From positions 1 through 41,970 of the IMG/VR virus record IMGVR_UViG_3300020176_000030: DNA of 41,970 nt; one strand, written 5' to 3'. Position numbers and translations under genes: made by a program. Position 1 is the stretch's first letter; each line of letters begins with the position of its first letter. Below, piece by piece: positions 3,042-39,866 of this stretch. The stretch comes from a virus. The notes below the pieces were generated by a model. The model was given only the letters and a program-made list of their open reading frames with translations. It was not told the origin of the DNA and ran no database searches.

Positions 3042-4306
3042 TACGCACCATCCAAGTACTGGCATTTAGCGGCGTCGAAGTACACCTCAGCCTGTACGTG
3101 CGACGGTCGTCCGGGCATTTGGTATTTGTTCTTCGGTGTACTGAAGCCACGGAGCTGCGCCATCTCTGGTGAGTCCAATGCACCAAGCATCAGGATAATG
3201 TCGGTCGCACCTTGGATACCGGTCTTGCTGTCCTTGAGCGCAGAGTACGGCGGGTACAGCATGTTCCCACCTTCGTTGCTGATCTGCACAGTGCCAAGGG
3301 ATACGAAGTCGTGGCGCACCGCCATCTCGCGGGCGACCTGCCACTTCTCCTCAATCTCGTCGGCCTTGTTACCGCCGCCGGAGCTGCTGCCCAAGCGGAA
3401 GTTTGCCATCATGTCCCAGACGACAACGCTCGGGCGCATGGCCTCGATGACCTGCTCGATTTGAGCAAAGCTCGCACCGTGCATATCCTTAACGCGGATG
3501 CGGTCAACACGACCGACCACTGACTCGTAACGCTCCCGTAGTGTGCCAGCATTAGACATGGCCACGAGTTCATCCATATCAACTCCAAGCGCGGCTTGGT
3601 AGATACGGGGCACAATACGCTGGCCTTTGCCCTCGTTATTGAGCCAGAGGATGGGTCGCTCGGGGTCGAAGTATTGATCGAGCTGCTTAGCGAAAGCTGC
3701 CAAGATAAAAGCAATGAGCGAAGTCTTGCCCTTGTCCGGCCGCCCGGCGATGGCGATGCTCGCCCCACCGAGTACGCCCTTGATAGCTCCTGTGAGAACA
3801 GCTGTTGGGAATTTAAGCCCATAGTCTTTCTCCTCGGTGGCAAGGATGCTCTCAATGCTGTCGTCGATCCATTGCGTGGACGTGCTCTGCGCCAACGTCC
3901 GCGAGGTTGTCTCGGACATACGGTGCAGTTCGTACACGAGGTCAACCTCCTCGCCTGCTTGGTAGCGGGCGATAAGGGCAGCGGCGCGGCCCGAGAAGTC
4001 TCGCTCATACAGGGAGGCAACGACGCCCTTGAGGGCAACCTCGTCTACGGGCTGACTGGCCTGCGCCAGTGCATACCGCATGACGGCCAACTGTTCAGGG
4101 TTGTACCCGCTGCGCAGCTTAATGAGTGCATCCAGTGCATCCCAGTTAATCTGCTCGTGCTCAGGGTACGCTTGGAAGTACAGGGGATACCACCCCAGTA
4201 CAGCTTGCGACTCTTGGCTAAGCATGCTGACCGGCACTGCTTCGCGCAGTGCTCGGTAGCGTTGCCTGTCCGTGAGCGCCTGTAGGATCAGGGTATCAGA
4301 AGCCAT
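3041..4306 (-). CDS. replicative DNA helicase (DnaB/T7 gp4-type)
   Basis: A 421-residue hexameric helicase with a RecA-type fold that unwinds DNA ahead of the phage polymerase. Visible features are the Walker A IAGRPDKGKTS, the Walker B-like VVVWDMMANF, and the downstream GTVQIS segment (H4-like). The N-terminal ~180 residues are helical and lack a primase domain; the primase is the separate gene upstream. The start at 4306 (MASDTL) is preferred because it follows GGGGTAGAT. The C-terminus KCQYLDGA is duplicated at the end of the following HNH gene, which suggests the present 3' end was rebuilt when the homing gene inserted. Confidence 0.94.
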   Translation of the reverse strand: MASDTLILQALTDRQRYRALREAVPVSMLSQESQAVLGWYPLYFQAYPEHEQINWDALDALIKLRSGYNPEQLAVMRYALAQASQPVDEVALKGVVASLYERDFSGRAAALIARYQAGEEVDLVYELHRMSETTSRTLAQSTSTQWIDDSIESILATEEKDYGLKFPTAVLTGAIKGVLGGASIAIAGRPDKGKTSLIAFILAAFAKQLDQYFDPERPILWLNNEGKGQRIVPRIYQAALGVDMDELVAMSNAGTLRERYESVVGRVDRIRVKDMHGASFAQIEQVIEAMRPSVVVWDMMANFRLGSSSGGGNKADEIEEKWQVAREMAVRHDFVSLGTVQISNEGGNMLYPPYSALKDSKTGIQGATDIILMLGALDSPEMAQLRGFSTPKNKYQMPGRPSHVQAEVYFDAAKCQYLDGA

Positions 4307-4442
4307 ATCTACCCCAGATGCTGCAACGCAGGGGCTCCTTGTCATCTGGGTACCACGCTACGTAGTACACCATAGCATCCGTCTCCACGATGTACCATTC
4401 ACCCATGTCGTCGGTCTGCCGCGTTATTTTAAAGTTGAACAT
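4296..4442 (-). CDS. 48-residue small ORF between primase and helicase
   Basis: A short ORF (MFNFKITRQTDDMGEWYIVE and on) bridging primase and helicase. Its ATG follows AAGGAGTTGCT, an excellent ribosome site located in the last primase codons. It overlaps the primase by 19 bases and the helicase start by 11. The composition is acidic and aromatic, with WY and YYVAWYPDD segments suggesting a small beta-sheet protein. No family is recognised. The coupling on both sides and the strong ribosome site are the case for it being real. Confidence 0.7.
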   Translation of the reverse strand: MFNFKITRQTDDMGEWYIVETDAMVYYVAWYPDDKEPLRCSIWGRYGF

Positions 4443-5233
4443 AGCAACTCCTTGATCTGGTCAGAGCGCATGTCCTTCGGGTCTAGGCCCTCGGGTACAC
4501 GCACCTCGGTTACGGTTTTGCCCATTGCCCGAAGGCGTTGAGCCACAGCCAAGCTACCACGCATGCCTGCACTGTCACCGTCGAAAGCAACAGCCACACT
4601 CCGACACGGTAGAAGCTGCGCGAGCAGTCGGGTATGTAGGGAGGTTCCGAGCACGGCGACTGCCACTCGGGGATCCGGTTGTCCATGCAGACTCCAGCGA
4701 ATCTTGAGGGTTGAGAAGTAGTCCTCGGTCAGCACCACGTCGCCCTGCACAGTATCGTGCGGGTGCGTAGCGTACACCGGGACCGGTTTACCGGGGCTGC
4801 GGTAGGCCACCCACTTCGGCTGCACATTCCCTAGCGCACGGCCGAGCCAGCCTTGCGCAGAGCCTACGATCAGGCGCTTCTGCTGCTTGCTCGTGTACAT
4901 CGGGACGCCGGGCAGCATGGTGTGCAGGTCAATGCCTTTGCCCAGCAGTGTACGCCACGCCCAGCGAGACAGCTCAGCGTCTGTCCCAAAGGGTACGGCG
5001 TCGGCTGGCCAAGGCATGACGCGCTCTTGCTGCTCTGGCGCTTGGCTCAGATCGACGTGCTCTTTCATCAGCACGCCGCCCTCGTGGCAACGGTGGCAGT
5101 ACGCCCACCACCGATCCACGTCGTTCCCGACTACGAGGTTAGCTCGGTTCTCCTCGTTATGGTACGTGCGCCTACTTTGCCCCACCGGCAGGGCCTGCGC
5201 CTTCGCAAGCCACTCGTTGTGGGGCAGGGGCAT
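4424..5233 (-). CDS. DNA primase (zinc and TOPRIM domains)
   Basis: A 269-residue primase that makes RNA primers for lagging-strand synthesis. A short zinc-binding segment holds Cys46-x2-Cys49 followed by His50 (CHRCHEGG); a second CxxC as in T7 gp4 is not visible. The TOPRIM fold follows, with VVLTEDYFSTLKI (Glu170) and VAFDGDSAG (217-223) as metal-binding motifs. Separate primase and helicase genes are typical of phiKMV-like phages, unlike the T7 gp4 fusion. The ATG at 5233 overlaps the preceding stop (TAATG) behind CTGGGGC. Confidence 0.92.
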   Translation of the reverse strand: MPLPHNEWLAKAQALPVGQSRRTYHNEENRANLVVGNDVDRWWAYCHRCHEGGVLMKEHVDLSQAPEQQERVMPWPADAVPFGTDAELSRWAWRTLLGKGIDLHTMLPGVPMYTSKQQKRLIVGSAQGWLGRALGNVQPKWVAYRSPGKPVPVYATHPHDTVQGDVVLTEDYFSTLKIRWSLHGQPDPRVAVAVLGTSLHTRLLAQLLPCRSVAVAFDGDSAGMRGSLAVAQRLRAMGKTVTEVRVPEGLDPKDMRSDQIKELLCSTLK

Positions 5234-11997: not shown

Positions 11998-12026
11998 ACT
12001 GTACCGATCGCTCAGTACCCTGTCAA
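11998..12026 (-). promoter_or_regulatory. early sigma70 promoter
   Basis: The -35 TTGACA (12021-12026, perfect, within GGGGTTGACAGGG), a 17-base spacer and the -10 TACAGT (11998-12003, 4 of 6). It shares GGGTTGACA with the promoter at 11860-11887. Tandem host promoters at the left genetic end are the rule in T7-like phages. Confidence 0.7.
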
Positions 12027-12133
12027 CCCCACCGCAGTCCCGCTAGTGCCTCGCTGCAATGTGGAGCCATTACACCATACTACTTAGGTTATAAGCAATA
12101 CCCCGCAAAGCACTAGATTGGTTATAACAAACA

Positions 12134-12145
12134 ATTGTCACACTA
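12134..12145 (+). promoter_or_regulatory. phage-promoter-like motif in reversed (+) orientation
   Basis: ATTGTCACACTA followed by CCACGAGAAGAGC, the same 12-mer found on the minus strand at three other places plus one variant. This copy alone reads on the plus strand and faces away from the early genes, into the T-poor block. AT-rich DNA lies just behind it, with two GGTTATAA copies (12087-12094, 12120-12127). If active, it would make RNA antisense to the late read-through; a role in replication or end processing is possible. Confidence 0.6.
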
Positions 12146-12205
12146 CCACGAGAAGAGCGAGGGAGAGCAGCAGCGATCCCGCAGCGAGCGAGCCGCCCGG
12201 CATAA

Positions 12206-12222
12206 GGGAGGGCGGGAACGGG
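12206..12222 (+). other. G-quadruplex motif
   Basis: Four GGG runs (12206-12208, 12210-12212, 12214-12216, 12220-12222) separated by loops of 1, 1 and 3 bases: a compact canonical G4 on the plus strand, about 60 bases beyond the reversed promoter motif. Confidence 0.7.
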
Positions 12223-12457
12223 CCGGCGTAGGCCAGAGGGATCCCAGAGCAGTACCAGAGGCAAAAGGGGCAAGGCACCCAAGGATCCGAGCAGGCGCAG
12301 CAAAAGACGCAAGCGACCCGCAGAGGCACACCGGCACAAGACGAAACGGGAGCGCACACAGCGCACACCGCGCGCACACGCCGCGAGGCGCACAGCGCGC
12401 ACAGGGAGTAACCGGGAGTGCGCACACGGATGCACAGGCATGCACGCACAGGCGCGG

Positions 12458-12503
12458 AGACAACCGGGCGGCATAGGCGCACGCGCAATAGACAACCGGG
12501 CGG
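12458..12503 (+). repeat. 14-bp direct repeat
   Basis: AGACAACCGGGCGG occurs at 12458-12471 and 12490-12503 in the T-poor block. The second copy runs on into GGGCGGGC. Confidence 0.7.
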
Positions 12504-12543
12504 GCGGGCATGCGTGCACATGCGGGCGCACACGTACCCCCAC

Positions 12544-12576
12544 GGGGGAGTGCGGGCGCGTACGGGGTGGGGAGGG
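12544..12576 (+). other. second G-quadruplex motif
   Basis: G-runs at 12544-12548, 12554-12556, 12564-12567, 12569-12572 and 12574-12576 with loops of 5, 7, 1 and 1 bases, giving several ways to form a plus-strand G4. It marks the edge of the T-poor block; ordinary base composition returns just after it. Confidence 0.6.
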
Positions 12577-12618
12577 CTCACGAATAATCGAACCAGATTT
12601 AGGCGCGAGTTACATGCG

Positions 12619-13816: not shown

Positions 13817-14019
13817 GCTTCCTCCTTGGAGCGGGCCATACGGACCCACTTGTGCACGAGGAAGCCAACCTGCAGCGCAATCAGCAACAGGGTACCCACT
13901 TGGATCAGGACCGGGAGGTCTACGCCCAGCAGCGACAGGGAGGCTACGCCGCCAGCGGGGGTGGCCATAGCCAACTGCTGGGCCGCTTCGTGTTTGACGG
14001 ACATACTGTTTCCTTTCAT
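13795..14019 (-). CDS. holin with two possible starts
   Basis: A small membrane protein (74 residues from ATG 14019, 69 from ATG 14004) with one clear membrane segment (LPVLIQVGTLLLIALQVGFLV) and a charged tail (KWVRMARSKEEACRSDND). It would depolarise the membrane and release the SAR endolysin encoded next. The upstream ATG overlaps the terminase stop behind GGAGG; the second ATG follows AAAGGAAACAGT. The two forms differ by MKGNS, which adds a Lys, resembling lambda-type holin/antiholin pairs. Confidence 0.85.
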   Translation of the reverse strand: MKGNSMSVKHEAAQQLAMATPAGGVASLSLLGVDLPVLIQVGTLLLIALQVGFLVHKWVRMARSKEEACRSDND

Positions 14020-15803
14020 CTGCCGAACCTCCGCGACCACGCCTTGTGTCTGGGCCGCCCGGTGTTCTGTGATTGTTTGTGCAAGGACGAGCCCAGCGGG
14101 TCTTTGATAAACTCTGCAGCTCTGGCAGCAGCCCGAGCGGCCTTCTCCTTGTCCTCGTCAACCACGAGGAAGCCAGTGAGTTCCCGCACGAGCCCTTCAA
14201 GGGCGTCCAAGCGGTCGTCTTTGGCCAGAGAGCCGCGATCCGTGGTGATGTTGTGCATCTGGTGGAAGCCAGAGCGCACGTCTCGGTGTGCTGCTGCATA
14301 CGACTGCAGCAGCTCCTGATCCATCTCCAGAGCGGTGCGGTGCATAATGAGTCGGTGCTTCTGCATAACCGGGCGGATAGTGTCGATGATCCGGCGCTCT
14401 TTCTGCCCGACCGCACTACGTTCGTCCACCCCAACACCCTCAAGGCGCCTGCGACCGGATTCATCCAGTCCGTTGAAATGGTTCTGCACCAACTTGGTTA
14501 CGGTACCCGCACCCATGTTCCTCTCAATCAGCACGGTCTTTATACCAAACCGCTTACAAAGGTCCACGAGCTTATCGAGGTTGGTGTCTGAGACACCGCC
14601 TTGCCAGCCACCCCAACCCACAACGTGGATATAAGGCCCGACATGGCCGCCCACAGCGAATGCAATCTCGTCGCCGCCATCACCGGCCGGGTCGAGGTAC
14701 AGGGTCATCGCTTTGAGCGGTACAAAATGCTCTGTCTGCCCAGCCGGACGGTACATCTCCGCCTGTTGCACACAGAAGTCCGCTGGCAACTCCACTCGGA
14801 AGCGGGGCTCAGCGGACCAGAAGACGCTCTCGGGCACCTGTTCGTGGCTGTAGTCAGCCAGAATCAGGTCTCGGAGCTTCAATTGCTGACGCACTGCGTC
14901 GGACAGGGCGGTGTTGAGCATGAATTGCAGCTCAAATGTCTCAGGCCCTTGGTCAATCTCCTTCGCCAGCAGGTCTTGCTCGTTATAACGCTCGGGATCG
15001 GTAGGCCAGCCACGCGTACCGTCCAACCCACCGCCCATCTGGCAGCGAGGCCCGAGGATTTGCATGCGCTCAAGGATACTTGGCGCCAGCTTATCACCGT
15101 ACTTCTCCAGCTCGGACGGTTTTGGGAACCGGCCCGGCCAGATGCGTACTTGGAAGCCACGGCTCGGGAGGCCGTTGTAGATACTCTCGCGAGTCTGCGG
15201 GGTGCCGAGGTACAGGATGCGCCCGTGCGTACAGATCGAGGTGAACTCCTTGGACAGCGTAACTAGCATCGCGCGTTGCGTTGCAGTCAGGCCGTTCTTG
15301 GTCGTCTCAATGTCGTCGGGGATCAGTACGTCAGCACGGTAGCCCTGCAGGGATGCAGTGATACCGAGGCAGCAGACGCTGGGCGACTTGTCTACGCCCT
15401 TGAGCGACCAGTGTACGTCGAACTTCTCAGTCGAGGTACGGTCGCCGCTGTACTTATCGGGGCGTAGGTAGTCCAGCAAGTCCCAGCCGTGGATCAGGCC
15501 GTGCATGAGCATGCCGTTCTCGGCCGCCTTGTCACCGGCACCGGAGATTAGCAGCACCCGATTCGGAGGATTCTGCACTAGGCTCCAGACACCGTACAGA
15601 CAGGCGATGGTACTCTTGGCCTCGCCCCGCTGGGCAGCCACCATCGCCTTGTCCGGCCCGTCCTGCATGAAGTCCGCAATGTCTTCCTGCATCCACGTCA
15701 TGTCAAAGCCGAGGAACTCCATCGCGTCGCGGCAGAACTCGGAGAAGCGCGGGTACATCTCGCGGACCAGCGCCGCCTTGTTAAACCGTTCGCGAATGTC
15801 CAT
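14016..15803 (-). CDS. terminase large subunit (DNA maturase B)
   Basis: A 595-residue T7 gp19-like packaging motor and nuclease. The N-terminal ATPase has a Walker A-like AAQRGEAKST and a Walker B region DVLIPDDIETTKN. The C-terminal RNase H-like nuclease has LYLDPAGDGGDE with the first catalytic Asp and a late KDDRLDALEG. It pumps DNA concatemers into proheads through the portal and cuts them at the genome ends. ATG 15803 overlaps the small-subunit stop (TGATG); a GTG one codon earlier is possible. Confidence 0.95.
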   Translation of the reverse strand: MDIRERFNKAALVREMYPRFSEFCRDAMEFLGFDMTWMQEDIADFMQDGPDKAMVAAQRGEAKSTIACLYGVWSLVQNPPNRVLLISGAGDKAAENGMLMHGLIHGWDLLDYLRPDKYSGDRTSTEKFDVHWSLKGVDKSPSVCCLGITASLQGYRADVLIPDDIETTKNGLTATQRAMLVTLSKEFTSICTHGRILYLGTPQTRESIYNGLPSRGFQVRIWPGRFPKPSELEKYGDKLAPSILERMQILGPRCQMGGGLDGTRGWPTDPERYNEQDLLAKEIDQGPETFELQFMLNTALSDAVRQQLKLRDLILADYSHEQVPESVFWSAEPRFRVELPADFCVQQAEMYRPAGQTEHFVPLKAMTLYLDPAGDGGDEIAFAVGGHVGPYIHVVGWGGWQGGVSDTNLDKLVDLCKRFGIKTVLIERNMGAGTVTKLVQNHFNGLDESGRRRLEGVGVDERSAVGQKERRIIDTIRPVMQKHRLIMHRTALEMDQELLQSYAAAHRDVRSGFHQMHNITTDRGSLAKDDRLDALEGLVRELTGFLVVDEDKEKAARAAARAAEFIKDPLGSSLHKQSQNTGRPRHKAWSRRFGR

Positions 15804-16099
15804 CACTGGGCTCCGTACAGGGCCTCAACATCAGCGTCTACGAGACGCAGCTTATCCTTGAGGCGGGTTACGTTCGCTTCCCGCTTACCCTCTAGCTGCT
15901 TGCGCAGCTCCTCCAACTGGTCGTTGTCGGCAGGGTCACAGGTGATGCTGTTGTCCTTGAGGAACTTGGCAATGGCCGCTTTATCGGCTGCAGGCAGCGG
16001 GATAGGCGGGTCTTGCTCCATGTACCAGCGCAGCTCATTCAGCATCAGCTGGGCCAGCGCTTCGTGCAGTTCCCCGAGGATTCCTTGTTTAGCGGCCAT
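15803..16099 (-). CDS. terminase small subunit (DNA maturase A)
   Basis: A 98-residue acidic, helical protein immediately upstream of the large subunit, the T7 gp18 position. It is expected to recognise the concatemer and regulate the motor. The C-terminal half (LEELRKQLEGKREANVTRLK) is coiled-coil-like. The start follows TAGGAGGCTTT; a phage-promoter-like motif lies 18-29 bases upstream, so it may lead a packaging/lysis transcript. Confidence 0.85.
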   Translation of the reverse strand: MAAKQGILGELHEALAQLMLNELRWYMEQDPPIPLPAADKAAIAKFLKDNSITCDPADNDQLEELRKQLEGKREANVTRLKDKLRLVDADVEALYGAQ

Positions 16100-16107
16100 A
16101 AAGCCTC

Positions 16108-16413
16108 CTAGTCTAGTAGTGTGACAATTGACTCCCGGCTACAGCCGTAGTGCAGAGCCACCTGAAGCTGCAGCTTGAGCTGCGCGAGGGCTAGCTCTGG
16201 GTTGAATGGGCGCGGAGTCCAACCGATCACCAAAGCACCACCCTCGAAGCGGTACTGCGGAATGGCAGGGCCGTCCGGTGCATCCTCAGTGACGACTGGG
16301 TACCACGTGCCGAGGGTGTTGGCTGGCGTGAGTGTCTCTGGGAGACTGGTCTGCGGATAGAACCCGCGTACCTGCACCTCACTGCACAGGCCGTATAAAG
16401 GTGAGAACATCAT
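16108..16413 (-). CDS. small tail-region protein
   Basis: A 101-residue protein between the tail genes and terminase. It starts MMFSPLYGLCSEVQ behind GGGGAGCCTATTGC, overlapping the preceding stop (ATGA). It is rich in Pro and aromatic residues in the first 70 positions and helical at the end (ELALAQLKLQLQVALHYG). A structural or fibre-assembly role is suggested only by position. Its last codons (ESIVTLLD) also encode the promoter-like motif upstream of terminase. Confidence 0.75.
   Translation of the reverse strand: MMFSPLYGLCSEVQVRGFYPQTSLPETLTPANTLGTWYPVVTEDAPDGPAIPQYRFEGGALVIGWTPRPFNPELALAQLKLQLQVALHYGCSRESIVTLLD
16117..16128 (-). promoter_or_regulatory. phage RNA polymerase promoter candidate (packaging genes)
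   Basis: ATTGTCACACTA read on the minus strand, followed by CTAGACTAGGAGGC and the small terminase ATG. It shares the CACTA core of T7 (CTCACTATAG) and SP6 (GACACTATAG) promoters and is identical to the motifs at 33099, 37125 and, reversed, 12134. Confidence 0.65.
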
Positions 16414-17447: not shown

Positions 17448-18568
17448 TACTTCACATCCTTCGCTACAAGGTAGCCGTACCAAGCACCAGCTGCGCCGGT
17501 TGGGTTGAGTAGCTGCACAATGTCCGTACCCGCAGCGGTGAGCGTGGGTGCAGTACCGCCCGGCCACTTGGTCATAGCTGGCCACGTAATGGCCCCTGCC
17601 CCGCCGTTGACAATCTCCAACGTAACTTGGTTCAATACATTGGATGCGAGGTTCGACACAGACAAGGTTGCCCCAGACGCGGTGTTGGTCAGCTTCTGGT
17701 ATGTGCCGGAGAGTAGGTTGATAGTGTACGCAGTGCCGCTCGGGGTGATGGTGCTGGCCGGGGACTCTGTGATCCGACCAGTAAAGTCGGGGTCCTGCTC
17801 AACAGTAGCCACGGCAGCGGCAGCAGCGTTAGCGGTACTCAGGGCAGTAGCCGAGTTGTCCAGAGCGGTTTGCGCTTTACCGTCCACCGCGCCTGCTGTA
17901 CTGACTGCAGCGATAGCTGCGTCGAGTGCATCCTGAGCCTTGCCATCAATGGCGTTGGCCGTCTCCTCCGCGATCAGCGCCTTCGCGAATGCATTGTCCG
18001 CCGTTGCGCTAGCGATGCTTGCAGCTGTCTGGGCGTCGAGTGCCGTACCCTCAATACCTTCGGCGATGGCCTTAGCGGTATTTGCGGTGCTCAGCGCAGT
18101 GGCGGCGTTGTTCAGGGCCGTGGTAGCTTTGGCGTCTACCCCGTTAGCTACGCCTAGTGCACCAGCTGCTACAGCCTTGGCGGCCTCAGCAGCGGCAATG
18201 GCGGCAGTAATGTCTGCGTCAAGTTCGTCCGCGATAGCCTTGGACTGCGCAGCCGTCCCGACAGCCTCCTGCACCACGAATAGCAGCTGGTCGTTATTCT
18301 CGGCGATGTTCTTTGGGGTGAAGGGTACACCATTACGGTAGTCGTGCCGAATCTCTAGTGCAGAGGTGCTGCGGTACCGACGTACAACAGCCCCAGCCGC
18401 AGGGGCCGGGGTGATGCTGATGTTGCCGTCATTGATCCAAGTGAAGGTCGTGCTTACGCCATCGACCTCCACGAAGACCTCTGCCCGGTTCTGATAGACG
18501 AACGGGACAGTGTACGCAGAGCCTCCGACACTGACAGTTGAAACGTCAATATCAGGGACTTGTGCCAT
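17447..18568 (-). CDS. tail fibre protein (T7 gp17 N-terminal type)
   Basis: A 373-residue fibre. Residues 1-110 match the T7-type fibre anchor (SVGGSAYTVPFVYQNRAEVFVEVDG, TPKNIAENNDQLLFVVQE) that attaches to the tail. Residues 105-260 are an Ala-rich trimeric coiled coil with repeated units built on VDGKAQTALDNSATALSTAN. The remaining ~110 residues form a small beta-rich end with no recognisable receptor domain. The start follows GAGGAGTAATC at the end of the preceding gene. Confidence 0.9.
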   Translation of the reverse strand: MAQVPDIDVSTVSVGGSAYTVPFVYQNRAEVFVEVDGVSTTFTWINDGNISITPAPAAGAVVRRYRSTSALEIRHDYRNGVPFTPKNIAENNDQLLFVVQEAVGTAAQSKAIADELDADITAAIAAAEAAKAVAAGALGVANGVDAKATTALNNAATALSTANTAKAIAEGIEGTALDAQTAASIASATADNAFAKALIAEETANAIDGKAQDALDAAIAAVSTAGAVDGKAQTALDNSATALSTANAAAAAVATVEQDPDFTGRITESPASTITPSGTAYTINLLSGTYQKLTNTASGATLSVSNLASNVLNQVTLEIVNGGAGAITWPAMTKWPGGTAPTLTAAGTDIVQLLNPTGAAGAWYGYLVAKDVK

Positions 18569-18570
18569 GA

Positions 18571-21500
18571 TTACTCCTCAAGGGCGTTCTGCAGAGCAGC
18601 CACGCCGGGCATGATTGAAACGAAAGGAAGAACAGCTCGCGCTGCCTGTACTGCATCACCTGCAGCGGCTGCGCCCTCACCTTGGATAGCGTTACCCACT
18701 GCACCTGCGGCAGCCGGCGCGGCGTTAGCCAACCCGGTGATCGGGACAGAGATGCCACCACGGCCACCGGACAGGCCGACGATGCCAGCAGCGTCGCCAA
18801 TGAAGCCAAGGCCAGCAGTATAGCCAACAGCCTTCTGCATCAGGTCGGCAATGCCCTTCTCGTCGAAGGACACGTCCTCGCCTTTGCGGAACTCGTTGGC
18901 TGCTACCATGATGACGGTCAGTGGATATTGGTGCGCGAGCATCATAGCCAGCCCGGTGTACCCGGAGTTCTGGATGGTGCCACGCAGCAGTTTGTTGTGC
19001 GCGAATGCAACGAACGAACGGAACTGACCGAGCACCTGACCTACACCGGAGCGGGAGAAGCTGGAGCCCTGACCGGCGCGGCCGTACAGTACGCTATCGT
19101 CCATCATGCGTAGCACGACGTTCATCGCCGAGTCCACGTCGGCTTGTGCCCACGCATCCCAGTTCATGGCCCGAGCGTTCTTGCCGTTCATGCGGACGTT
19201 AGCCTGCACGGCTGCCTGCACTCGATCCCAGTCTGCACCTTTGAGTCCGTACTCTCGCACGAGCTTGAGCGCAGCGGCGTCACCATTGCTGGCGCGTACG
19301 AGGGTGTTCATGGCTAGGTTGCTGGATACACGGGTCTGCCACTGGTGCACGAACTTCATACCGTTCAGGATTGGCACAGCCTGCTGACCGTAGTGCAGCA
19401 CGCGGTCGATTGTGTGGTCGCCCTGCACAGCAAGGTTCGGCTCAAACTGCCGCAGCCACGGACGCACGCGTACGTCACGAGCAAGGTCCAGACCCAGCAC
19501 GGTACCCAGCTCGTCGTACAGGTCCGGGTCGCGCCCGATCTTACGGAGCACGCCAGCGATACCGGGGAACTGCTTGATGAACTCTGCACCGGTACGCGCA
19601 GCGCCATAGCGCCATGCGATGGTTGCAGTCTCCGCCACCTGCCACAGACCGGAAGCCTGCAGCATAGTAGCATGAGCGAACGACTTAGCACGCTGTGCGT
19701 ACGGACCAAGGATTGCGTCCTCTGGGCGGATACCCGTGAAGTCGCCGAGTAGGTAGTCCAGCTGCTTCATGCGGCCTTGAATGTCGGACTGGGTGCGGAA
19801 GGCGTTGAGTCCATCATCCGAACGGGCCACGGTAGCGGGGGCGCCTGCTGTGAAGTCGCCCTTCTGCGGCACGTAGTCCAGCATGTTGTCGGTGTGCTGC
19901 ATGATGATGCTGAGCACGGAGTCGTCTGGCATCGCACGGTCAGTCAGACCAAACAGGCTCTTGATGCTAGCCACGAAGGAGCTAAGCGCGGTCTTCTCCC
20001 GGCCCGGTATCCTGATCTTACGCAGCGCATCCTGTGCACGTGAATCAGACATAGCCCATGCCACCAACTCCTTTGGGTCTTTCATGATGTTGGTGGTCTT
20101 GGCCAGCTGTGCGAGGGAGCTATCCGGGTTCTTCTCCAGTTGCGCAGCAAGAGCCTTATGCAGCCTCGTCAACTCAGCTACGCCGGCGTGCACCTTAGCC
20201 GTCTTCGCATTCAGCGGCAGCTGGTGGATACGGTCCACCATGGTGACGGTTACGCTATGCGTTAGCTCGTGTAGTGCAGTCACTGGGTTGATTCCACGGC
20301 GACCGGGCACGTTGGCACCACGCAGCATTACCATACTCTCAACGATACCACCCTTGACGCGAGTGGCAGCAGCACCACCTGTACTGGGGCGTAGGAATAC
20401 CTCTGGCACATCGCCGGCAGTGACCTCGCGGACCAGTAGGTCGTGCCCTTGCTCACGCCAGAGCTTGAACACATCTGCTAGTCGCTTCGCATAGGTCTTC
20501 GTGTAGATCGTACCGACGTCTTTGGACAGTACGGCTAACAGGTCTTCCGGGTTGTCTGATTTGCGCAGTGCCTCGGAGATAATCTGCTCGTCCGGCGTTA
20601 GCTCAGTCGGGATCGCGGGTAGATTGCCACGCGGACCGCCGGTTGCAATCTCCTCCGCAGACTCTGATACAGTACCCTTCGGCTGCGTCTTCACCTGCCC
20701 GGCATTCTCAAAGCGTTCCTTGACATTCTGCTTGAACTCGGCCAGCTTGCGGTAATACTCCTCCGAACGGCCCTCCAAGGCCAGACGCTGCAGCTCTTTG
20801 AAGTCGTTGATGCTGGCGTCGTCGCCACCATAGCCTGCACGGGCAAGCGCACTGCGGCCAGTCATGGCCTGCATGTAGTTCTCGGCGACGCGGCTCAGGT
20901 CTGTGTCGATCATGTCCAGCATGCGTACGACCTTACCATTTGGTGCCACAGCGGTCAGGGTCATGTCTAGCGGCAGGCGTTCCTTGCCGTACTTGATGCG
21001 ACCACGCTCGCTAAGGTTCTGGTCGATACGGCCCATGACGGACTTGATAGTGCCTTCGTCTACACCAGCGTCCTTGAGCATTACGGCGATACCGTCGCTG
21101 TCGGCTTGGCCCAGTGCGCCCATGAAGTCGGCGCGCAGGCCACGCTGCTTGGCGTCCATGCGGGTCAGGATGGCGGTAGCGATGGTACCAGCCTCTGCCT
21201 TCTCCAGCCCTAGACCTGACATGACGGAGCGGGTCAGCAGCTCGCGGGTGAAGTCCCGGCCGTGCTCGACCTCAATGGCACGCATCTTGTTCTCATTCCA
21301 CGAGCGGTGGAAGTAGCCGGGGCGGCGCTGGAAGTCCTTGAAGCCGGGCAGCCCGGAGTCGCGGGCAAGCTCAGCCATCTGGCCCATCATGTCCTCGTAC
21401 TGGTCAGCCAGCTTACTGATGCGCGGGTTGCTGCTAGAGGTTACACTTCCGGTCTGGTTGAACTCAAAGTCCCGGCGTGCCAGCTCGACAGCGATACTAT

Positions 21501-28740: not shown

Positions 28741-29733
28741 TTAGGCAGTGAAGGTAATGTCGTGCACAGCAACGGCGTCAGGACGACGCGCGCCGATGGC
28801 GTACGACTGGATGGTGTCCAGCACGTGGCAGAACTTCTCCTTCCATTCCCAGTAGTCGGCAGACACCGGGTGTACCTGGGCGGCAACCAGAGCCAGCGAC
28901 GGGATGACGGTAATCATCTGGCGACGGGCTTGTGCAGCGGTCAGGTTGTAGTCAGCGCCCAGCGGGCTGGTGGTGATGGCGCCGGTAGCGAAGCGCGGGG
29001 TCTCGACGATGCGGACGCCGTTCATCATACCGATGCGACCAGCTACCAGCGAGTTACCGCCTTCGCCTGCACCGTACTCGATGCTGGTCAGCTGCTTGTG
29101 CTCCAGCAGCATAGAGAAGATTTCCGGGGTCACGTAGGTGATGCCTTCCGACATAACCTGATCGCCCAGATCGCGCTTAATCAGCGCCTCGATACCCTTA
29201 CGATGCTCACGACGCAGGGTCGCGGCAGTGGCCTCGGCGTTGGCGGCAGCGGTACTGACAGAGGCAGCCAGCAGGAGACCATTGTTGAAGGCGCCTGCCA
29301 GATGTGCCGGGGCAACGAAGTCGCCACACTTCTGCAGGGTAATCAGACAGGCTTGGTCGAACTGGCGGGCCAGTGCAATGCCGTCCTCACGGGCAACTTC
29401 TTTGCGCATATCCAGCGAGGCGACCCAATCGTCGAACTTGTCGAACTGGTGGCGGGCGTACAGTACGGTATCCACCACGAGGTTGAACTTGTCCGACTTG
29501 ACCTTGGAGACGTTCAGGTCTTCACCAGCCTTACGGCCGGCGACGGTGCTGGCGCCCACGCGGTCAATGCGTACTTGGTTGGTACCACGCAGGGTACGGA
29601 TGTTGGTCACGCCAGCGAACTTGGAGGCGTACTGGAACGAAGAGTCAACGATACCGAGGTGTTCCTCGATATGCAGGTCAACGTCGGAGTTCACACCACC
29701 CCAATTCGGGCGAGTCAGATCAGCGAGTGCCAT
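28741..29733 (-). CDS. major capsid protein (T7 gp10-like)
   Basis: A 330-residue HK97-fold shell protein. Recognisable parts are NWGGVNSDVDLHIEEHLG at the N-terminus, RVGASTVAGRKAGEDL, the helical DDWVASLDMRKEVAREDG spine region and the C-terminal PVSADYWEWKEKFCHVLDTI. Length suits phiKMV-type capsids. It starts behind AATAAGGAAAGC and is followed by a strong terminator, giving a high dose of its mRNA. No slippage site for a longer minor form is obvious. Confidence 0.95.
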   Translation of the reverse strand: MALADLTRPNWGGVNSDVDLHIEEHLGIVDSSFQYASKFAGVTNIRTLRGTNQVRIDRVGASTVAGRKAGEDLNVSKVKSDKFNLVVDTVLYARHQFDKFDDWVASLDMRKEVAREDGIALARQFDQACLITLQKCGDFVAPAHLAGAFNNGLLLAASVSTAAANAEATAATLRREHRKGIEALIKRDLGDQVMSEGITYVTPEIFSMLLEHKQLTSIEYGAGEGGNSLVAGRIGMMNGVRIVETPRFATGAITTSPLGADYNLTAAQARRQMITVIPSLALVAAQVHPVSADYWEWKEKFCHVLDTIQSYAIGARRPDAVAVHDITFTA

Positions 29734-29748
29734 GTATTGCTTTCCTTA

Positions 29749-30591
29749 TTAAAGACCTTGTTGGATGCCGAGACGGCGTGCATTCTGCAGCTTGGTGTAC
29801 TCTGCATCACTCAGGTTGTGCTTGGAGATGGCCTTGACGTATTCGTCGCGGGTCAGTCCTTTCTCTGCGCTTGGTTGACCGAGGGCTGGGTCGTTATGAA
29901 CAACGAGTTTACCGTTGGTCACAGCGAAGTCCACGATCTGCTTGAGCGCGTACTGCATGCTCGCCTTATCACCGCTGTCGAGCAGCTTGGCCATAGCGGC
30001 CTTGGTCACAGGGTCAGCAGTTTCGTTGAACACCTTGGCAGCAGCTTCGACTCGATCCTTGCCACCGGCGGCCTTAAAGACCTCAGCCTCAAGGGCGTTG
30101 CTGATACGTTCGGCGTGGCCGAGCAGCTGCTTCGCGGCTTCAACGGCCAGCTTGGCATTCTTCTCGCCCAGCTTCTCGACGAGATAAGCCTCGTCAATGA
30201 AGCGTGCATCGTCCTCGGCTGCGGCCTTGCCAAAGGCACGGTTCACATCCAAGTCGCCCACCAGCGTTTCCAGCATACCTGCAACTACGGCCGCCTGCGG
30301 ATCGCCAAGCAGCTCAGCACCGAGCATATCGTTCAGGTTGGCGTACGAATCAGCCTGGGGCTGGTCGGTCGGCTTCTGATCGGGGACGGTGGTGTCTGCC
30401 TTCTGAGGTGGCTTGCGCACCTCTGGGACTTCGGGGGTAGGCTTCTGTGCAGCCAGTTGTGCGGCGCGCTCAGCAATGCCTTCGGGGAGGTGCTGCGTAG
30501 GGGCAGCCGGGGTAGACTCCGGCGCGGCTGCGGGAACAGCTGCGGGGGCCGGGGTCGGGAGAGATGGAATGGTTGGGATTACTTCCGACAT
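29749..30591 (-). CDS. capsid assembly scaffolding protein (T7 gp9-like)
   Basis: A 280-residue acidic scaffold between portal and capsid genes. Residues 1-80 are Pro/Ala/Thr-rich and probably disordered; the rest is helical (NDMLGAELLGDPQAAVVAGM onwards), ending in a helix-loop-helix rich in basic residues (YTKLQNARRLGIQQGL) that would bind the capsid protein. It directs procapsid assembly and leaves before packaging. ATG overlaps the portal stop (TAATG). Confidence 0.92.
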   Translation of the reverse strand: MSEVIPTIPSLPTPAPAAVPAAAPESTPAAPTQHLPEGIAERAAQLAAQKPTPEVPEVRKPPQKADTTVPDQKPTDQPQADSYANLNDMLGAELLGDPQAAVVAGMLETLVGDLDVNRAFGKAAAEDDARFIDEAYLVEKLGEKNAKLAVEAAKQLLGHAERISNALEAEVFKAAGGKDRVEAAAKVFNETADPVTKAAMAKLLDSGDKASMQYALKQIVDFAVTNGKLVVHNDPALGQPSAEKGLTRDEYVKAISKHNLSDAEYTKLQNARRLGIQQGL

Positions 30592-33098: not shown

Positions 33099-33110
33099 TA
33101 GTGTGACAAT
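33099..33110 (-). promoter_or_regulatory. phage RNA polymerase promoter candidate (head/tail genes)
   Basis: TAATTGTCACACTAGAGTGACG, broken as TAATTGTCACACTA plus GAGTGACG, begins at the RNA polymerase stop codon itself. It heads the whole virion module. GTCAC-N6-GTGAC forms a short inverted repeat over the core, shared with the copy at 37125. Confidence 0.68.
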
Positions 33111-35545
33111 TAGCAAAACCCAAATTCCGACCACAGGAACTCGGTCAGATCGAGGGTGCCCTTGGTGGGTAGTGACACATCCTGCTGCCCAATCCCAGTG
33201 AGGAGCAGCTGCATCGGGTCATGCTCGGTGTACAGCTCCACGAATGCCTCACGGATACACTCGTGCATACGGTCAACGTCGCACGGGTGTGTGCCGAAGC
33301 TGTCGTGGATAGCCACCATAGCCAGACCATCCTGACGCATGCGGCGAGCCGTGAAGGTCAGGTGCGCGGCGTCGAGGGCATGCACGAAGTTCGGGGAGAT
33401 GGCGTTGGCCATCGCCTGCGAGCGTGTACTGTCGAGCACCTCGCGCACCACGATGTACTGCAGGCCGCACGAGCGGATACGTACGCGCTTCTCAGTACTG
33501 TCCCGGTAGTCGTGCTCAACCAGCAATCCCGTCGGGCTGTGCCACAGCATGGGTGCGTCTGTGCCGTACTGCTTGGCGCGATTACGCAACCAGCGCATCG
33601 CGGCAGCAGCGGCCGGTACGGTGTCCTCGATACTGTCGAACAGGACGGACGCCATGTACGCACCCATCTCCCACATGCGCACGCCTTCCGGCAGCGGGAT
33701 GCGGTTGTCTTCCAGATAGTCCGTCACGAACTCGGACACGCCGCGCAGGGTGGCGCCGTACACGTACGTCATCACCGGCTTCTTCGCCAGCTCACGCGGC
33801 ACGTCAATGTCAACCCATGCAGCGGCCAGATGCTGCTTGGCGCACTTCGGATCGTTCGCGTCCCGCAGTACCCGGCCCTTGGCCAGCTCGGCTACCTTGC
33901 GGTAAATGTCCGCCTTGGTCGCCTCGCCGCTATCGTACAGGTTCACGTACCTGCCACCGATAGGATCACGCAGCATCGCACAGAAGTGTTGCAGACCGGA
34001 GCAGGTGGCGTCCATGTGCACGGGTACGCCAGTGCAGTACGCCTCCGGGTTGCCGGACTCCAGCGCAGCGCGCAGCTCCCACAGTGCCGAGAAGGCCATG
34101 AGCGGGGCGTCATTGTTCCCACGGAACAGGTCGCTGTCCTCCGGGGCGTCCAGCCCGGCCAGCAGGAGGTCGAGGTTCTCGTCCACCCACGCAGCCCGCT
34201 GGACGAAGCGCGCCTTGTCCTTGCCGAAGCAGTTGGCGATGTGCACCTTCAACCAGAACAGGCCGCGAGGTCCAAGGGGCTTAACCTCGGAGAAGTGCAG
34301 CAGCGCCTTGGCAATGTCGCCACCCTGCGGATTCAGCACGCCACGGTAGTAGTACCGGCTGCGGCTGTCGATGAAGGTCGGGAACCACAGGTCGCAGTCA
34401 ACATCCTTCGTGTGTCGCAGCGCCGTGCTCAGTGTGATGTGCGCCTTGCGCAATTCCATGCGCTCACTGTGCCAGCGCCACGTCTTACGCTTCCAGCCCT
34501 TGAGCTGCTCCAGCTCGTCCTCGGTAGCCTGTGCCTTGTCCCAGCCCTCAGGGAACGGGAAGGCCGGGGCCGGGCGCATCTCCTTGAACGGGATACCCAG
34601 CACACCGCCACCGTTGCGCCAGACTCGGTGCACCATCTCCAGCGTGGGCTTGTGTATGCGGAAGCTCTGCGCCTGCAGGTAGTTCCCGCAGTCGAGCACC
34701 TGCGTGCACTGCTGCAGGTTCTGGGCCAGCAGCGGGCGCATCCATGCACGGGTACGCAGACCCATGCGGCGGAACGGGGCGTGAATCTGCATCTTGCGGG
34801 TGTAGTACCCGCCACCTGCATGCCCATCCCACGGAAGCGGCGGGGCCAGCATCGGCTCCATCGTCTGGTGGAAGTACGTGGGCTGCTTGAGCAGCACCTC
34901 TGCGACTTCCGGGGCCAGCTCGTAGATCACCGAGGTGTACTTGCCCTGACCATACCGGGCCATCTGCACCAACCCGCAATTCAGACAGGCGTCCAGCCCG
35001 TGCTTACCGAGGTGGATGTACTCGGCGTTACTCAGACCCTGAGCGTACTCCTCGCCCAGCACGTTCTTCACGGCAGCACGCATCGTCTTGAGTGTATGCG
35101 ACTGGCTTACGGTGCCGGCAGTCTTGAGGTAGTCCTCGGTGCGCTCGATGTACATCGGGTTCACCTTGTACGCCTCTTGCACCAGCGCCTCTCGCACAAT
35201 CGCCAGACCGAGGGAGTGCGTGATCTGTTGGGCGGTGGCCGGGGACTCCCGACTGTCGCGGATACACACAGACACAACGGTACGTACGGTCAGCGTAGTC
35301 AGCACGTCCAGAGGTACGCGGCGCAGCCAGCCACGCAGCGCAGCACCGGGGCCACGCTGAGTAGTGCTGCAGATCAGTTCCAGCTCAGCGCGCACATCCG
35401 AGAAGATGCGGGCCAGCATACGCGGGAACGCAGCGAGGTCGTCAACCCGACCCTCGGCGACAGCCTCGGCATGCTCGCGCATCTGCTGCGCAGCGGCCTC
35501 GGTCGAGGCACGGAGTTCTCGTTCGACTTGGGTAGGGTTGAGCAT
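33110..35545 (-). CDS. single-subunit DNA-directed RNA polymerase (T7 type)
   Basis: An 811-residue T7-family RNA polymerase that takes over transcription of phage genes. Conserved parts in order: motif A with the first catalytic Asp (MDATCSGLQHFCAMLRD), motif B (RELAKKPVMTYVYGATLRG), SPNFVHALDAAHL, motif C (VAIHDSFGTHPCDVDRM) with the second catalytic Asp, and a C-terminus WSEFGFC comparable to T7 FAFA. It is slightly shorter than T7 gp1 (883), as in phiKMV. Its location before the head genes, not at the early end, is the phiKMV arrangement. ATG 35545 follows AAGGATCAGTG; a GTG precedes it. Confidence 0.96.
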   Translation of the reverse strand: MLNPTQVERELRASTEAAAQQMREHAEAVAEGRVDDLAAFPRMLARIFSDVRAELELICSTTQRGPGAALRGWLRRVPLDVLTTLTVRTVVSVCIRDSRESPATAQQITHSLGLAIVREALVQEAYKVNPMYIERTEDYLKTAGTVSQSHTLKTMRAAVKNVLGEEYAQGLSNAEYIHLGKHGLDACLNCGLVQMARYGQGKYTSVIYELAPEVAEVLLKQPTYFHQTMEPMLAPPLPWDGHAGGGYYTRKMQIHAPFRRMGLRTRAWMRPLLAQNLQQCTQVLDCGNYLQAQSFRIHKPTLEMVHRVWRNGGGVLGIPFKEMRPAPAFPFPEGWDKAQATEDELEQLKGWKRKTWRWHSERMELRKAHITLSTALRHTKDVDCDLWFPTFIDSRSRYYYRGVLNPQGGDIAKALLHFSEVKPLGPRGLFWLKVHIANCFGKDKARFVQRAAWVDENLDLLLAGLDAPEDSDLFRGNNDAPLMAFSALWELRAALESGNPEAYCTGVPVHMDATCSGLQHFCAMLRDPIGGRYVNLYDSGEATKADIYRKVAELAKGRVLRDANDPKCAKQHLAAAWVDIDVPRELAKKPVMTYVYGATLRGVSEFVTDYLEDNRIPLPEGVRMWEMGAYMASVLFDSIEDTVPAAAAAMRWLRNRAKQYGTDAPMLWHSPTGLLVEHDYRDSTEKRVRIRSCGLQYIVVREVLDSTRSQAMANAISPNFVHALDAAHLTFTARRMRQDGLAMVAIHDSFGTHPCDVDRMHECIREAFVELYTEHDPMQLLLTGIGQQDVSLPTKGTLDLTEFLWSEFGFC

Positions 35546-35554
35546 CACTGATCC

Positions 35555-35737: not shown

Positions 35738-36260
35738 TCTGAATCTCCAGCTCATGCAGGAACAGGGCGTTGGTCGCAACGTGCGACCAGTGGGAACAAC
35801 CAGACTCCGGGTCGGTCAGCTCGCCGGACTCGATGGCGTGCAGGTGCCGGTACAGTGCGTCCTTGTAACGCTCCTGCCCGTTCTGCACATTACGCCACGA
35901 GTGCGCGGCGTACTTCTTCGCCCCGAAGGTCAGGACGGCCACGATGCCGGCGAGGCTATTGGCCAGCCCTTGCATCAGCAGGGACCAGCGCGGCTTGCCA
36001 GAATCGAACTTGAGGTCTGGTTCCTGCGACGGCTGCGGAGCGTAGATACGTACCCGGCTGTTCGTGTCGTTCACCCACTCCCCAATCACAGCGGTCGTTT
36101 TGTATCCGTTAGCCACGTACCTAGTCATGCCGGTGTGGTTGTCGAACAGCTCCCCGGTGCGGGTGTTCAGCCAGCGCGGGAGTTGTTGCTTAACGTAGTC
36201 CGCCTTTGTGTCACCAGCCACTTGCGTGTACCGTACCTCTACGATGTGGTCTTGGCTCAT
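35727..36260 (-). CDS. DUF5664 dNTP pyrophosphohydrolase-like protein
   Basis: A 177-residue protein. Residues about 83-170 match the phage DUF5664 family, annotated as dATP/dGTP diphosphohydrolase-like: DLKFDSGKPRWSLLM, FGAKKYAAHSWRNVQNGQER, LYRHLHAIESGELTDPESG and CSHWSHVATNALFL. It may adjust nucleotide pools during phage DNA synthesis. The N-terminal ~80 residues are a separate beta-rich part (RYTQVAGDTKADYVKQQLPR). No PurZ-type synthase occurs in the window, so base modification need not be involved. ATG 36260 overlaps the upstream stop (ATGA). Confidence 0.75.
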   Translation of the reverse strand: MSQDHIVEVRYTQVAGDTKADYVKQQLPRWLNTRTGELFDNHTGMTRYVANGYKTTAVIGEWVNDTNSRVRIYAPQPSQEPDLKFDSGKPRWSLLMQGLANSLAGIVAVLTFGAKKYAAHSWRNVQNGQERYKDALYRHLHAIESGELTDPESGCSHWSHVATNALFLHELEIQNAK

Positions 36261-37312
36261 ACTGCGCTCCTCAGTTTGCGGCGTTGTTCTAGAGTGTTCA
36301 TCAGCTTGCGGCCACGGCTCCAACCCTTGCAGCTATGGCAGAGGAACAGTTCGTACTGCCCCACGTTCGTACGGTACGGCTTGGCCTGCAGTTCCAGATG
36401 CTTACCACCACACTTCGGACACACCGGGTCTTCCGAGTCCACGAAGTTACCGTGGTTCGGCGCCTTGTCATCCCACGGGAGCATAATCAGGTACAGTTCT
36501 TCTAGCGACAGTACGTCATCGCGGTTGTACAGCTCCATCTCCTCCCATGCTTCGGCATTGCCGATCAGGCATTGCTGCCACAGCAGATAGCCGGGGAACT
36601 TTGAGTGGCTGCGCTTCTTGGTATCGCAGAGCTTGTCGGTCAGGTATGCCAGCTTATTGCTGGTGAAGGCGAAGTTCCTCTTAGCGGTTTCCAGTGTATC
36701 GGATACACGATACGGCGAAGGCGGTGTCAAGCCATTCAGGATGAAGCGGGCATTGATCTTCTTGGTATCAAAGCGACGGCCATTGTGTGCAACCACAATG
36801 TCTGCTTCGTCCAATAGCTTCCACACATCCTTGAGCATCTCCAGATCATTATCCATCGGATGCACATTACGCTGATCCCGGTACACTACCGCATCTTCGC
36901 CTACCCACTTAGCTGAGTAGGATAGAATGAACCAGTCTTCCTTCACTTGTTCCAGTGATAGGAAGTTATTGAACAATCCCCATACTGCTCCGAATATAGG
37001 TGCTGTCTCAATATCTATTACTAGTACTCTTGGTCCTTCCGTCTTCGACGGCCGCGCCACTGCGTCGCTCGCTTTCGCTTGCTGCACTTCGGGCTCCGCT
37101 GCGCTGCTCGCTCCTTGTGTCACGGTAGTGTGACAATTAATATCCCGCAGCCAGAAGCGTACCAACTGGCGGGAAACTTCACCTCGGCCGAGTGCTGTGA
37201 GGATGGCTGCTGCGCCTCGGCGGCTGCCTTGCGCCTTCCGCTCAGCGTCCCGAATCTCGTCATCCGAGAAGGCACTGCGGGATACTTGGTCTGGAGCTTT
37301 CAGTCGTTTCAT
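36257..37312 (-). CDS. DnaQ-like 3'-5' exonuclease with C-terminal zinc ribbon
   Basis: A 351-residue protein. The RNase H-fold exonuclease core shows Exo I (VLVIDIETAP; Asp100, Glu102), Exo II (IVVAHNGRRFD; Asp182) and Exo III (YNRDDVLSLEELY; around Tyr262 and Asp266). The C-terminus has a four-Cys zinc ribbon (Cys298, Cys301, Cys325, Cys328). The N-terminal ~90 residues are a basic domain plus a low-complexity linker. It may trim or degrade DNA or RNA. ATG 37312 follows GAAGGGTTCCCA and overlaps the endonuclease stop (ATGA). A promoter-like motif lies in the linker codons. Confidence 0.88.
   Translation of the reverse strand: MKRLKAPDQVSRSAFSDDEIRDAERKAQGSRRGAAAILTALGRGEVSRQLVRFWLRDINCHTTVTQGASSAAEPEVQQAKASDAVARPSKTEGPRVLVIDIETAPIFGAVWGLFNNFLSLEQVKEDWFILSYSAKWVGEDAVVYRDQRNVHPMDNDLEMLKDVWKLLDEADIVVAHNGRRFDTKKINARFILNGLTPPSPYRVSDTLETAKRNFAFTSNKLAYLTDKLCDTKKRSHSKFPGYLLWQQCLIGNAEAWEEMELYNRDDVLSLEELYLIMLPWDDKAPNHGNFVDSEDPVCPKCGGKHLELQAKPYRTNVGQYELFLCHSCKGWSRGRKLMNTLEQRRKLRSAV
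37125..37136 (-). promoter_or_regulatory. phage promoter candidate inside the exonuclease gene
   Basis: ATTGTCACACTA followed by CCGTGACACAAGG on the minus strand, within codons for INCHTTVTQ of the exonuclease linker. It lies about 1.6 kb before the RNA polymerase ATG, so it could give autogenous amplification of that gene. The core is flanked by TGTCAC and GTGACA, a 6-bp inverted repeat. Confidence 0.62.
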
Positions 37313-37740
37313 TGGGAACCCTTCGGTAACATAACGCGCACTTTGGCAGTTGCCCGGCGTGCGGCTTGAGCCTTGTTCTTCTTGACACGTGCCGCCTCGG
37401 CCTTCTCCTCGGCAGACTTGTGCTCGGGGTACATGTACCCGGTGCCCGGCTGCTTGAGGTAGATCACGAGACGTTCTAGCCAAGGGACGATCTTGTCGTA
37501 CGACATGCCGAGGCCGGCGTACCGCCCTACGGCGTTGGCCACCTTACCCTCGGCGCCGTTGCAGCCACGGTGCAGAACGCCTCGTACCTCGCCTGTAACG
37601 TGGTCATGGTCAACGACCATACCACCCCTCTCGTTCGGGTCGATTCGCTGCTGACAGAGCGGGCAGATGCCGCCCTGCACGCCTTGCAGATGCGATAGCG
37701 CGAATCCCCGGAGCTGAGTTCTAGTCAGCTTCCTGAGCAT
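37309..37740 (-). CDS. recombination endonuclease VII
   Basis: A 143-residue His-Me finger nuclease that resolves branched DNA before packaging. Features are Cys26-x2-Cys29 (CPLCQQRIDP), the DHDH motif at 44-47 (VVDHDHVTG), Arg53 (RGVLHRGCN) and Cys60-Asn61, the T4 endonuclease VII pattern with zinc ligands. The C-terminal 40 residues are basic and helical. ATG 37740 follows AGGAGGCCGAGG and overlaps the exonuclease end by 20 bases. Confidence 0.93.
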   Translation of the reverse strand: MLRKLTRTQLRGFALSHLQGVQGGICPLCQQRIDPNERGGMVVDHDHVTGEVRGVLHRGCNGAEGKVANAVGRYAGLGMSYDKIVPWLERLVIYLKQPGTGYMYPEHKSAEEKAEAARVKKNKAQAARRATAKVRVMLPKGSQ

Positions 37741-39651: not shown

Positions 39652-39866
39652 TGTTTCTTCTCCATGATATGTACGAGTTGGGTTGAGCTGAGATTGAGGA
39701 ACGACACGTCACCATTCGCCTTAACCATTCGCATGATATTGCCTTCGAGTGCGACGCGATAGTCTTTGACGTTATTAACCAATGTCGAACTTCCGTCACC
39801 ATCGTCAGGCATCTCACGCCACCAGATTTGGACGGTATATAGTGTGACAGTTTTATCTCCGTTCAA
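39648..39866 (-). CDS. small protein downstream of DNA polymerase
   Basis: A 72-residue ORF beginning at a TTG (39866) that follows AAGGAG at a good distance inside the last polymerase codons and overlaps its TGA. It reads NGDKTVTLYTVQIWWREMPD, then an acidic loop and VSFLNLSSTQLVHIMEKKQ, resembling a small beta-sheet protein. The TTG start makes the exact N-terminus uncertain. A promoter-like motif coincides with codons 5-9. No family is recognised. Confidence 0.7.
   Translation of the reverse strand: MNGDKTVTLYTVQIWWREMPDDGDGSSTLVNNVKDYRVALEGNIMRMVKANGDVSFLNLSSTQLVHIMEKKQ
39840..39851 (-). promoter_or_regulatory. phage promoter candidate (variant)
   Basis: ACTGTCACACTA followed by TATACC on the minus strand: 11 of 12 bases match the other copies, and CACTATA matches the T7/SP6 core best of all. 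It lies in the first codons of the 72-residue gene, ahead of the recombination nuclease genes. Confidence 0.55.

Follow-up and report, generated by a model that had tools for sequence, protein, structure and literature searches.

The question raised by this locus is why a copy of a phage promoter should stand at the probable end of a phage genome, turned against the genes and facing DNA that is almost devoid of T. The locus lies in the IMG/VR virus record IMGVR_UViG_3300020176_000030, a virus genome of 41,970 bases (the whole stretch analysed, hereafter the window), whose genes are on the minus strand and syntenic with those of Pseudomonas phage LKA1; judged by this synteny and by its homologous RNA polymerase (RNAP) and terminase, the window phage is LKA1-like (Stubburvirus relative LKA1; Krylovirinae, Autographiviridae). 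An inverted copy of what appears to be the phage's own T7-type promoter was found here, conserved across the subfamily and bordering a T-depleted block that extends to the predicted mature end, an arrangement that could serve the opening, copying or maturation of the terminal repeat through a leftward (plus-strand) RNA. The features on which the argument depends are the following:

12134-12145, plus strand: inverted phage RNAP promoter core ATTGTCACACTA, from the motif match and an alignment of 19 inverted promoters
33099-33110, minus strand: forward phage promoter at the RNAP stop codon, placed like that at 21826 in LKA1
16117-16128, minus strand: forward phage promoter upstream of the terminase small subunit
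37126-37137, minus strand: forward phage promoter within ORF 36257-37483
39840-39851, minus strand: forward phage promoter with one mismatch, ACTGTCACACTA
12080-12133: AT-rich segment behind the inverted promoter, with two GGTTATAA
12150-12573, plus strand: predicted leftward run-off transcript, 424 nt, A110 C129 G166 U19
12287-12408, plus strand: T-free run of 122 nt (the next longest in the window is 42)
12274-12573: predicted direct terminal repeat, 300 bp, present as a single (collapsed) copy; mature left end at 12573
12537-12548, minus strand: T7-like terminal element CCCCCGTGGGGG (in T7, CCCCCATAGGGGG)
12260-12276, minus strand: repeat GCCTTGCCCCTTTTGCC at the right boundary of the terminal repeat

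In the whole window, ATTGTCACACTA has one exact copy on the plus strand (12134-12145) and three on the minus strand (16117, 33099 and 37126), with the single variant also on the minus strand, in line with a preliminary description made from the letters alone. One and the same motif stands at the end of the RNAP gene and at other sites, ahead of late genes among them, as fits the phage's own specificity, and by this sequence evidence the 12-mer is the promoter of its T7-type RNAP. The full T7-like element spans about 12130-12152, with a predicted start site near G12150 (taken from the 19-promoter alignment, in which a GGAGAGAAGCGA-type start region is conserved), and the consensus TAATGTCACATANNATAGG with a downstream GGAGAGA is similar to TAATACGACTCACTATAGGGAGA, the T7 promoter. 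The AT-rich upstream DNA with a repeat that had been described is also there, the two copies of GGTTATAA being at 12087-12094 and 12120-12127, and the DNA behind the inverted promoter is AT-rich in LKA1 and in the IMG/VR contig L012 as well.

The LKA1 motif, ATTGTCGCACTA (with one base changed in common), has two forward copies, one at 17848 and one on the stop codon of the RNAP gene (21826), besides a variant at 31510 and a single inverted copy at 464. LUZ19 (TATGTCACCCAC), phiNV3 (TTATGTCTCCCT), MR6 (TAATGTGACATA) and phi-2 (TAATGTCACATA) each have copies in the forward direction immediately after the RNAP gene and others, inverted, at the left end; in phi-2 there are eight inverted promoters in tandem. 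The comparison was extended with IMG/VR loci anchored on the terminase large subunit, TerL (L012, L013, L014, L027, L029, L032, L035, L041, L042, L051, L053 and L054). An inverted promoter was found in all 19 of the aligned Krylovirinae junctions, and nearly all of them match the forward promoter of the same genome; L014 and PLS27 are counted among the 19 by similarity, their sequences holding no forward copy for comparison, and the count covers relatives whose junctions are readable throughout (the contigs L025, L026, L028, L030, L031, L033 and L048-L050 end early or are unresolved). The inverted copy is therefore a trait of the subfamily and not an oddity of one genome, and motif and skew are both present in close relatives, where their absence would have spoken against the preliminary description. 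The forward promoter diverges between Krylovirinae genera and the inverted copy has changed along with it, so that one polymerase very probably reads both. The junction of the window recurs in L061, an independent contig at 99.9% identity, with 0 differences over the 560 bases compared, and is therefore not an assembly error.

Outside the subfamily, no inverted phage promoter was found at the left end of T7, SP6 or KpV48. For Koot_B1, APK20 and GHSM17 the search at the RNAP gene end recognised no promoter family and hence gave no orientation. No paper describing the inverted promoter was found in a literature search that left many journals out of reach. The 'LKA1-specific' and 'LUZ19 phage-specific' promoters of GenBank were considered as the motif and rejected, their sequences being different from it; these annotated sites are at 3130, 6753, 14413 and 24765 in LUZ19 (L016) and at 2757, 3608, 6926 and 15011 in LKA1 (L005). 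From the motif, the phage promoters of LUZ19 are likely those at 21118, 21315, 35593 and 737 (inverted), and those of LKA1 likely at 17848, 21826, 31510 and 464 (inverted). Three contigs carry divergent phage promoter pairs at the left end, 60-93 bp apart (L029 13971/14064, L041 15228/15288, L054 12298/12358).

The position of the mature end was predicted from a T7-like signature, in which CCCCC starts at base 26 from the end in T7, LKA1, NV3 and APK20, at 25 in the KpV48 and PLS27 records and at 29 in the LUZ19 record. The left end of the window was placed by CCCCC at +26, and the right boundary of the repeat by the homologous GCC|TTGCC of LKA1 (298 bp) and PLS27 (318 bp), which gives 300 bp; this region is present only once, and a terminal repeat collapsed in assembly would look like this. 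In LKA1 and phiPLS27 the direct terminal repeat is found at the corresponding place, and copies related to GCCTTGCCCCTTTTGCC occupy the same position in LKA1, PLS27, L012, L014 and LUZ19. Neither a leftward terminator was found nor a conserved hairpin outside the left end that could act as terminator or processing signal, the stems present there being no better than those of shuffles (z -1.3 to 0.0). The CCCCC signature occurs in several subfamilies (L055, L005, L016, L018, L021, L022) and can predict ends in permuted assemblies. In APK20 (L021), the segment 379-636, directly behind a 376-bp terminal repeat, is strongly G-depleted (6.6% G, 33 bits). The phiPLS27 record (L008, AH001319.2) is filed as Teseptimavirus yet LKA1-like, and it lists the second terminal repeat (1030-1345) in reverse orientation.

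Between this end and the inverted promoter lies the depleted block. The preliminary description counted 15 T in 12181-12540 and none in 12287-12408, and both counts are exact. A blind maximal-scoring-segment search for A-depletion on the gene strand, supplied with no coordinates and controlled with 60 dinucleotide shuffles, returned plus-strand 12145-12577 as the most depleted segment, with 72 bits against a shuffle maximum of 17.2. In gene-strand coordinates this segment (29394-29826) runs from the predicted end (29398) to the promoter (29826), and the same was seen in LKA1 (segment 16-459, end 1, promoter 464), HHBS14_1 (4255-4636, 4240, 4641), L012 (12369-12863, 12351, 12868) and LUZ19 (24-715, 4, 737), whereas in L014 the segment reaches the promoter (5190) but begins about 100 bp inside the end. 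The pyrimidine-rich segment also stops at the promoter in NV3 (1033 vs 1034), L027, L032, L035, L053, L054 and L013, and in most of the added IMG/VR loci the edge of the most pyrimidine-rich segment falls on the inverted copy of the genome's own promoter; in NV3, MR6 and several IMG/VR loci the skew is a milder one, towards purines, and not a strong T-depletion. Inside the segment, A accounts for 4-10% of the gene strand. Immediately upstream of the promoter the figure is 18-28% (in LUZ19, 10-18%) and past the end mostly 10-25%, so that the boundary at the end is less abrupt than that at the promoter. The A content is similarly low in the repeat and in the unique DNA between repeat and promoter (LKA1 1-298 7.7%, 299-463 5.5%; LUZ19 1-472 7.0%, 473-735 6.5%), and the skew therefore follows the would-be transcript, not the repeat.

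The block of LUZ19, equally depleted from its mature end to its inverted promoter, has no detectable similarity to that of the window; between these two, composition is conserved and not sequence, as the preliminary description had proposed to check. It is mainly C and T, and less G, that stand in for the A lost from the gene strand, a pattern that speaks against an origin by simple A-to-G deamination. The block had also been described as without ORFs, and this does not hold literally, because mechanical ORFs of 113-157 aa cross it on both strands; such long ORFs are expected where stop codons are rare, as in T-poor and A-poor DNA, and we see no reason in the sequence to call them genes.

The energy of RNA:DNA minus DNA:DNA pairing was calculated with published nearest-neighbour parameters (Sugimoto 1995; SantaLucia 1998). 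By this energy the leftward transcript is among the lowest 4 of 83,080 sequence windows in the window and the lowest 2 of 82,262 in LKA1, and is the lowest of 85,628 in LUZ19; it is thus predicted to be the strongest or nearly the strongest R-loop former in each of the three genomes. By these energies alone the hybrid is more stable than the duplex over the long, purine-rich predicted transcript, in agreement with its earlier designation as a candidate for a stable R-loop. rU:dA pairs are the weakest in hybrids, and the removal of U while A is kept is therefore the outcome expected of selection for a stable hybrid. Two G-quadruplex (G4) motifs had been noted as well, and they are present, starting at 12206 and 12544 (the latter overlapping the T7-like end element), although a role for them is unsupported: no G4 was found in the block of LKA1, HHBS14_1, L012 or MR6, and G4 was rejected as a conserved feature. 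Unusually weak RNA structure, considered as another common property, is not general and was likewise rejected.

The inverted-promoter site is flanked by the last right-end gene and the early host promoters, and the RNAP gene is late in the early/middle block, a trait of the Krylovirinae. The neighbouring genes and host promoters are:

14016-15806, minus strand: TerL, 73% identical to that of LKA1
33110-35548, minus strand: phage RNAP gene, 812 aa, 60% identical to HHBS14_1 RNAP
11998-12026, minus strand: early host sigma70 promoter TTGACA-17-TACAGT, rightward to the early genes (from sequence)
11887-11860, minus strand: second early host sigma70 promoter (from sequence)

An LKA1-like early region is also found in HHBS51_1 (L009, PQ287641.1), a 76-kb 'complete genome' in which it is joined to genes of a sheathed tailed phage and which looks chimeric.

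The claim that a reversed phage promoter at the genome end faces a U-poor block predicted to favour R-loops is thus borne out by the motif copies and by the relatives. From this arrangement we infer transcription, R-loop formation and a function in end maturation, as follows. The phage's own T7-type RNAP would fire leftward from the inverted promoter and transcribe the terminal repeat, giving a run-off RNA of about 424 nt that stops with the mature left end or, in concatemers, an RNA that continues across the junction. This RNA would owe its near lack of U and its richness in purines to selection for a hybrid that is stable on the repeat's template strand; the R-loop would open the repeat, and the RNA 3' end could prime leftward DNA synthesis that helps to make the second repeat copy when concatemers are cut. 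In addition or instead, the R-loop could bring in terminase, which T7 RNAP recruits at the concatemer junction of T7. That the inverted promoter drives an RNA with some such part in opening, copying or maturing the repeat is a proposal on which our belief is evenly balanced. Its more specific form, that Krylovirinae duplicate or open the repeat by a programmed R-loop in which a U-free RNA hybridised to the mature end primes the missing copy, is possible but doubtful; to our knowledge, such a process is undescribed for T7-like phages.

Several observations weigh against this proposal. The predicted R-loop is weakly extreme in HHBS14_1, L032, L035 and L042; the leftward-strand hybrid minimum also lies at the left end of SP6 (L056 1-400), KpV48 (L022 1-446) and APK20 (L021 1-600), which have no recognised inverted phage promoter, and part of the left-end bias may thus have another cause; and the transcript folds ordinarily (-0.40 kcal/nt in the window vs -0.38 for the genome). 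The skew might then be a DNA-level trait of the first-entering left end, such as avoidance of sigma70 -10 boxes or primase sites, which the inverted promoter merely borders. The T-free bottom strand does lack T7-type 5'-GTC primase sites (0 vs 8.8 expected), but in unrelated sequences only about 5-22 nt at most separate the skew edge from the promoter, and the exchange of T for purines is confined to one strand, which simple -10 box avoidance does not predict, and we hold this explanation to be improbable. Still less probable is that the transcript itself is the product, as a stable small RNA (a packaging RNA like phi29 pRNA, or an antisense to right-end genes in concatemers). A purine-rich, U-poor RNA is expected to be a poor RNase E substrate, and phi29 pRNA, too, is transcribed at one end of a linear genome; pRNA, however, needs a conserved structure, and the predicted RNA has no Rfam match, no conservation of sequence between the window and LUZ19 and no folding stronger than the genome background.

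The main rival is a left-end replication origin, where the leftward R-loop RNA would be a leading-strand primer beside the AT-rich segment and the fork would turn bidirectional, leaving concatemer processing unaffected. T7 replication starts at phage promoters with RNA primers, an AT-rich segment does flank the inverted promoter, and both the divergent pairs of L029, L041 and L054 (an origin-like layout) and the tandem array of phi-2 suit such a role. A leftward primer so near the end, however, would copy only 0.4-1 kb, the AT-rich segment overlaps the early host promoter region, and the skew runs on to the mature end before weakening, yet an origin needs just a short primer. As the origin common to T7-like phages that had been suggested, it is not supported, T7 and SP6 being without the inverted promoter (T7 has only the leftward host promoter A0, at 224), and as an explanation for the Krylovirinae we consider it unlikely. 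We prefer a part for the RNA in opening and copying the repeat, for two reasons: the skew extends over all of the repeat as far as the mature end, and T7 RNAP is tied to junction maturation, pausing at the concatemer junction and working with gp18/gp19 (PMC3276506).

Throughout a subfamily, the phage's own promoter recurs in inverted form facing the repeat, which provides a concrete, mutable element, and the prediction can be tested in the laboratory phages LKA1 and LUZ19, for which phage promoters other than those annotated in GenBank are identified here. The arrangement bears on how the second repeat copy is regenerated in T7-like phages and on why T7 has the end promoters phiOL and A0.

One of the closest known systems is phiOL of T7 (Teseptimavirus), a single-subunit RNAP promoter that likewise has the left terminal repeat on one side and the early host promoters on the other, at a distance of a few hundred bp from the end (405 in T7); phiOL is rightward, whereas the Krylovirinae copy is inverted throughout the aligned junctions, facing the repeat, with a T-depleted predicted transcript. 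T7 A0 shares the leftward direction into the terminal repeat, and the top pyrimidine-rich segment of T7 (112-215) ends at it, although A0 is read by the host RNAP and the T7 skew is much weaker (11.6 bits). At phiOR, phage RNAP transcription and pausing at the concatemer junction are linked to maturation and packaging (PMC3276506), but in the window phage the repeat-proximal phage promoter sits in the left end and is inverted. The Drulisvirus KpV48 (Slopekvirinae) has a phage-promoter-like copy at 447, bordering its leftward hybrid-stability minimum, although this copy points rightward. The arrangement of the Krylovirinae is thus a conserved variant of the left-end promoter layout of T7.
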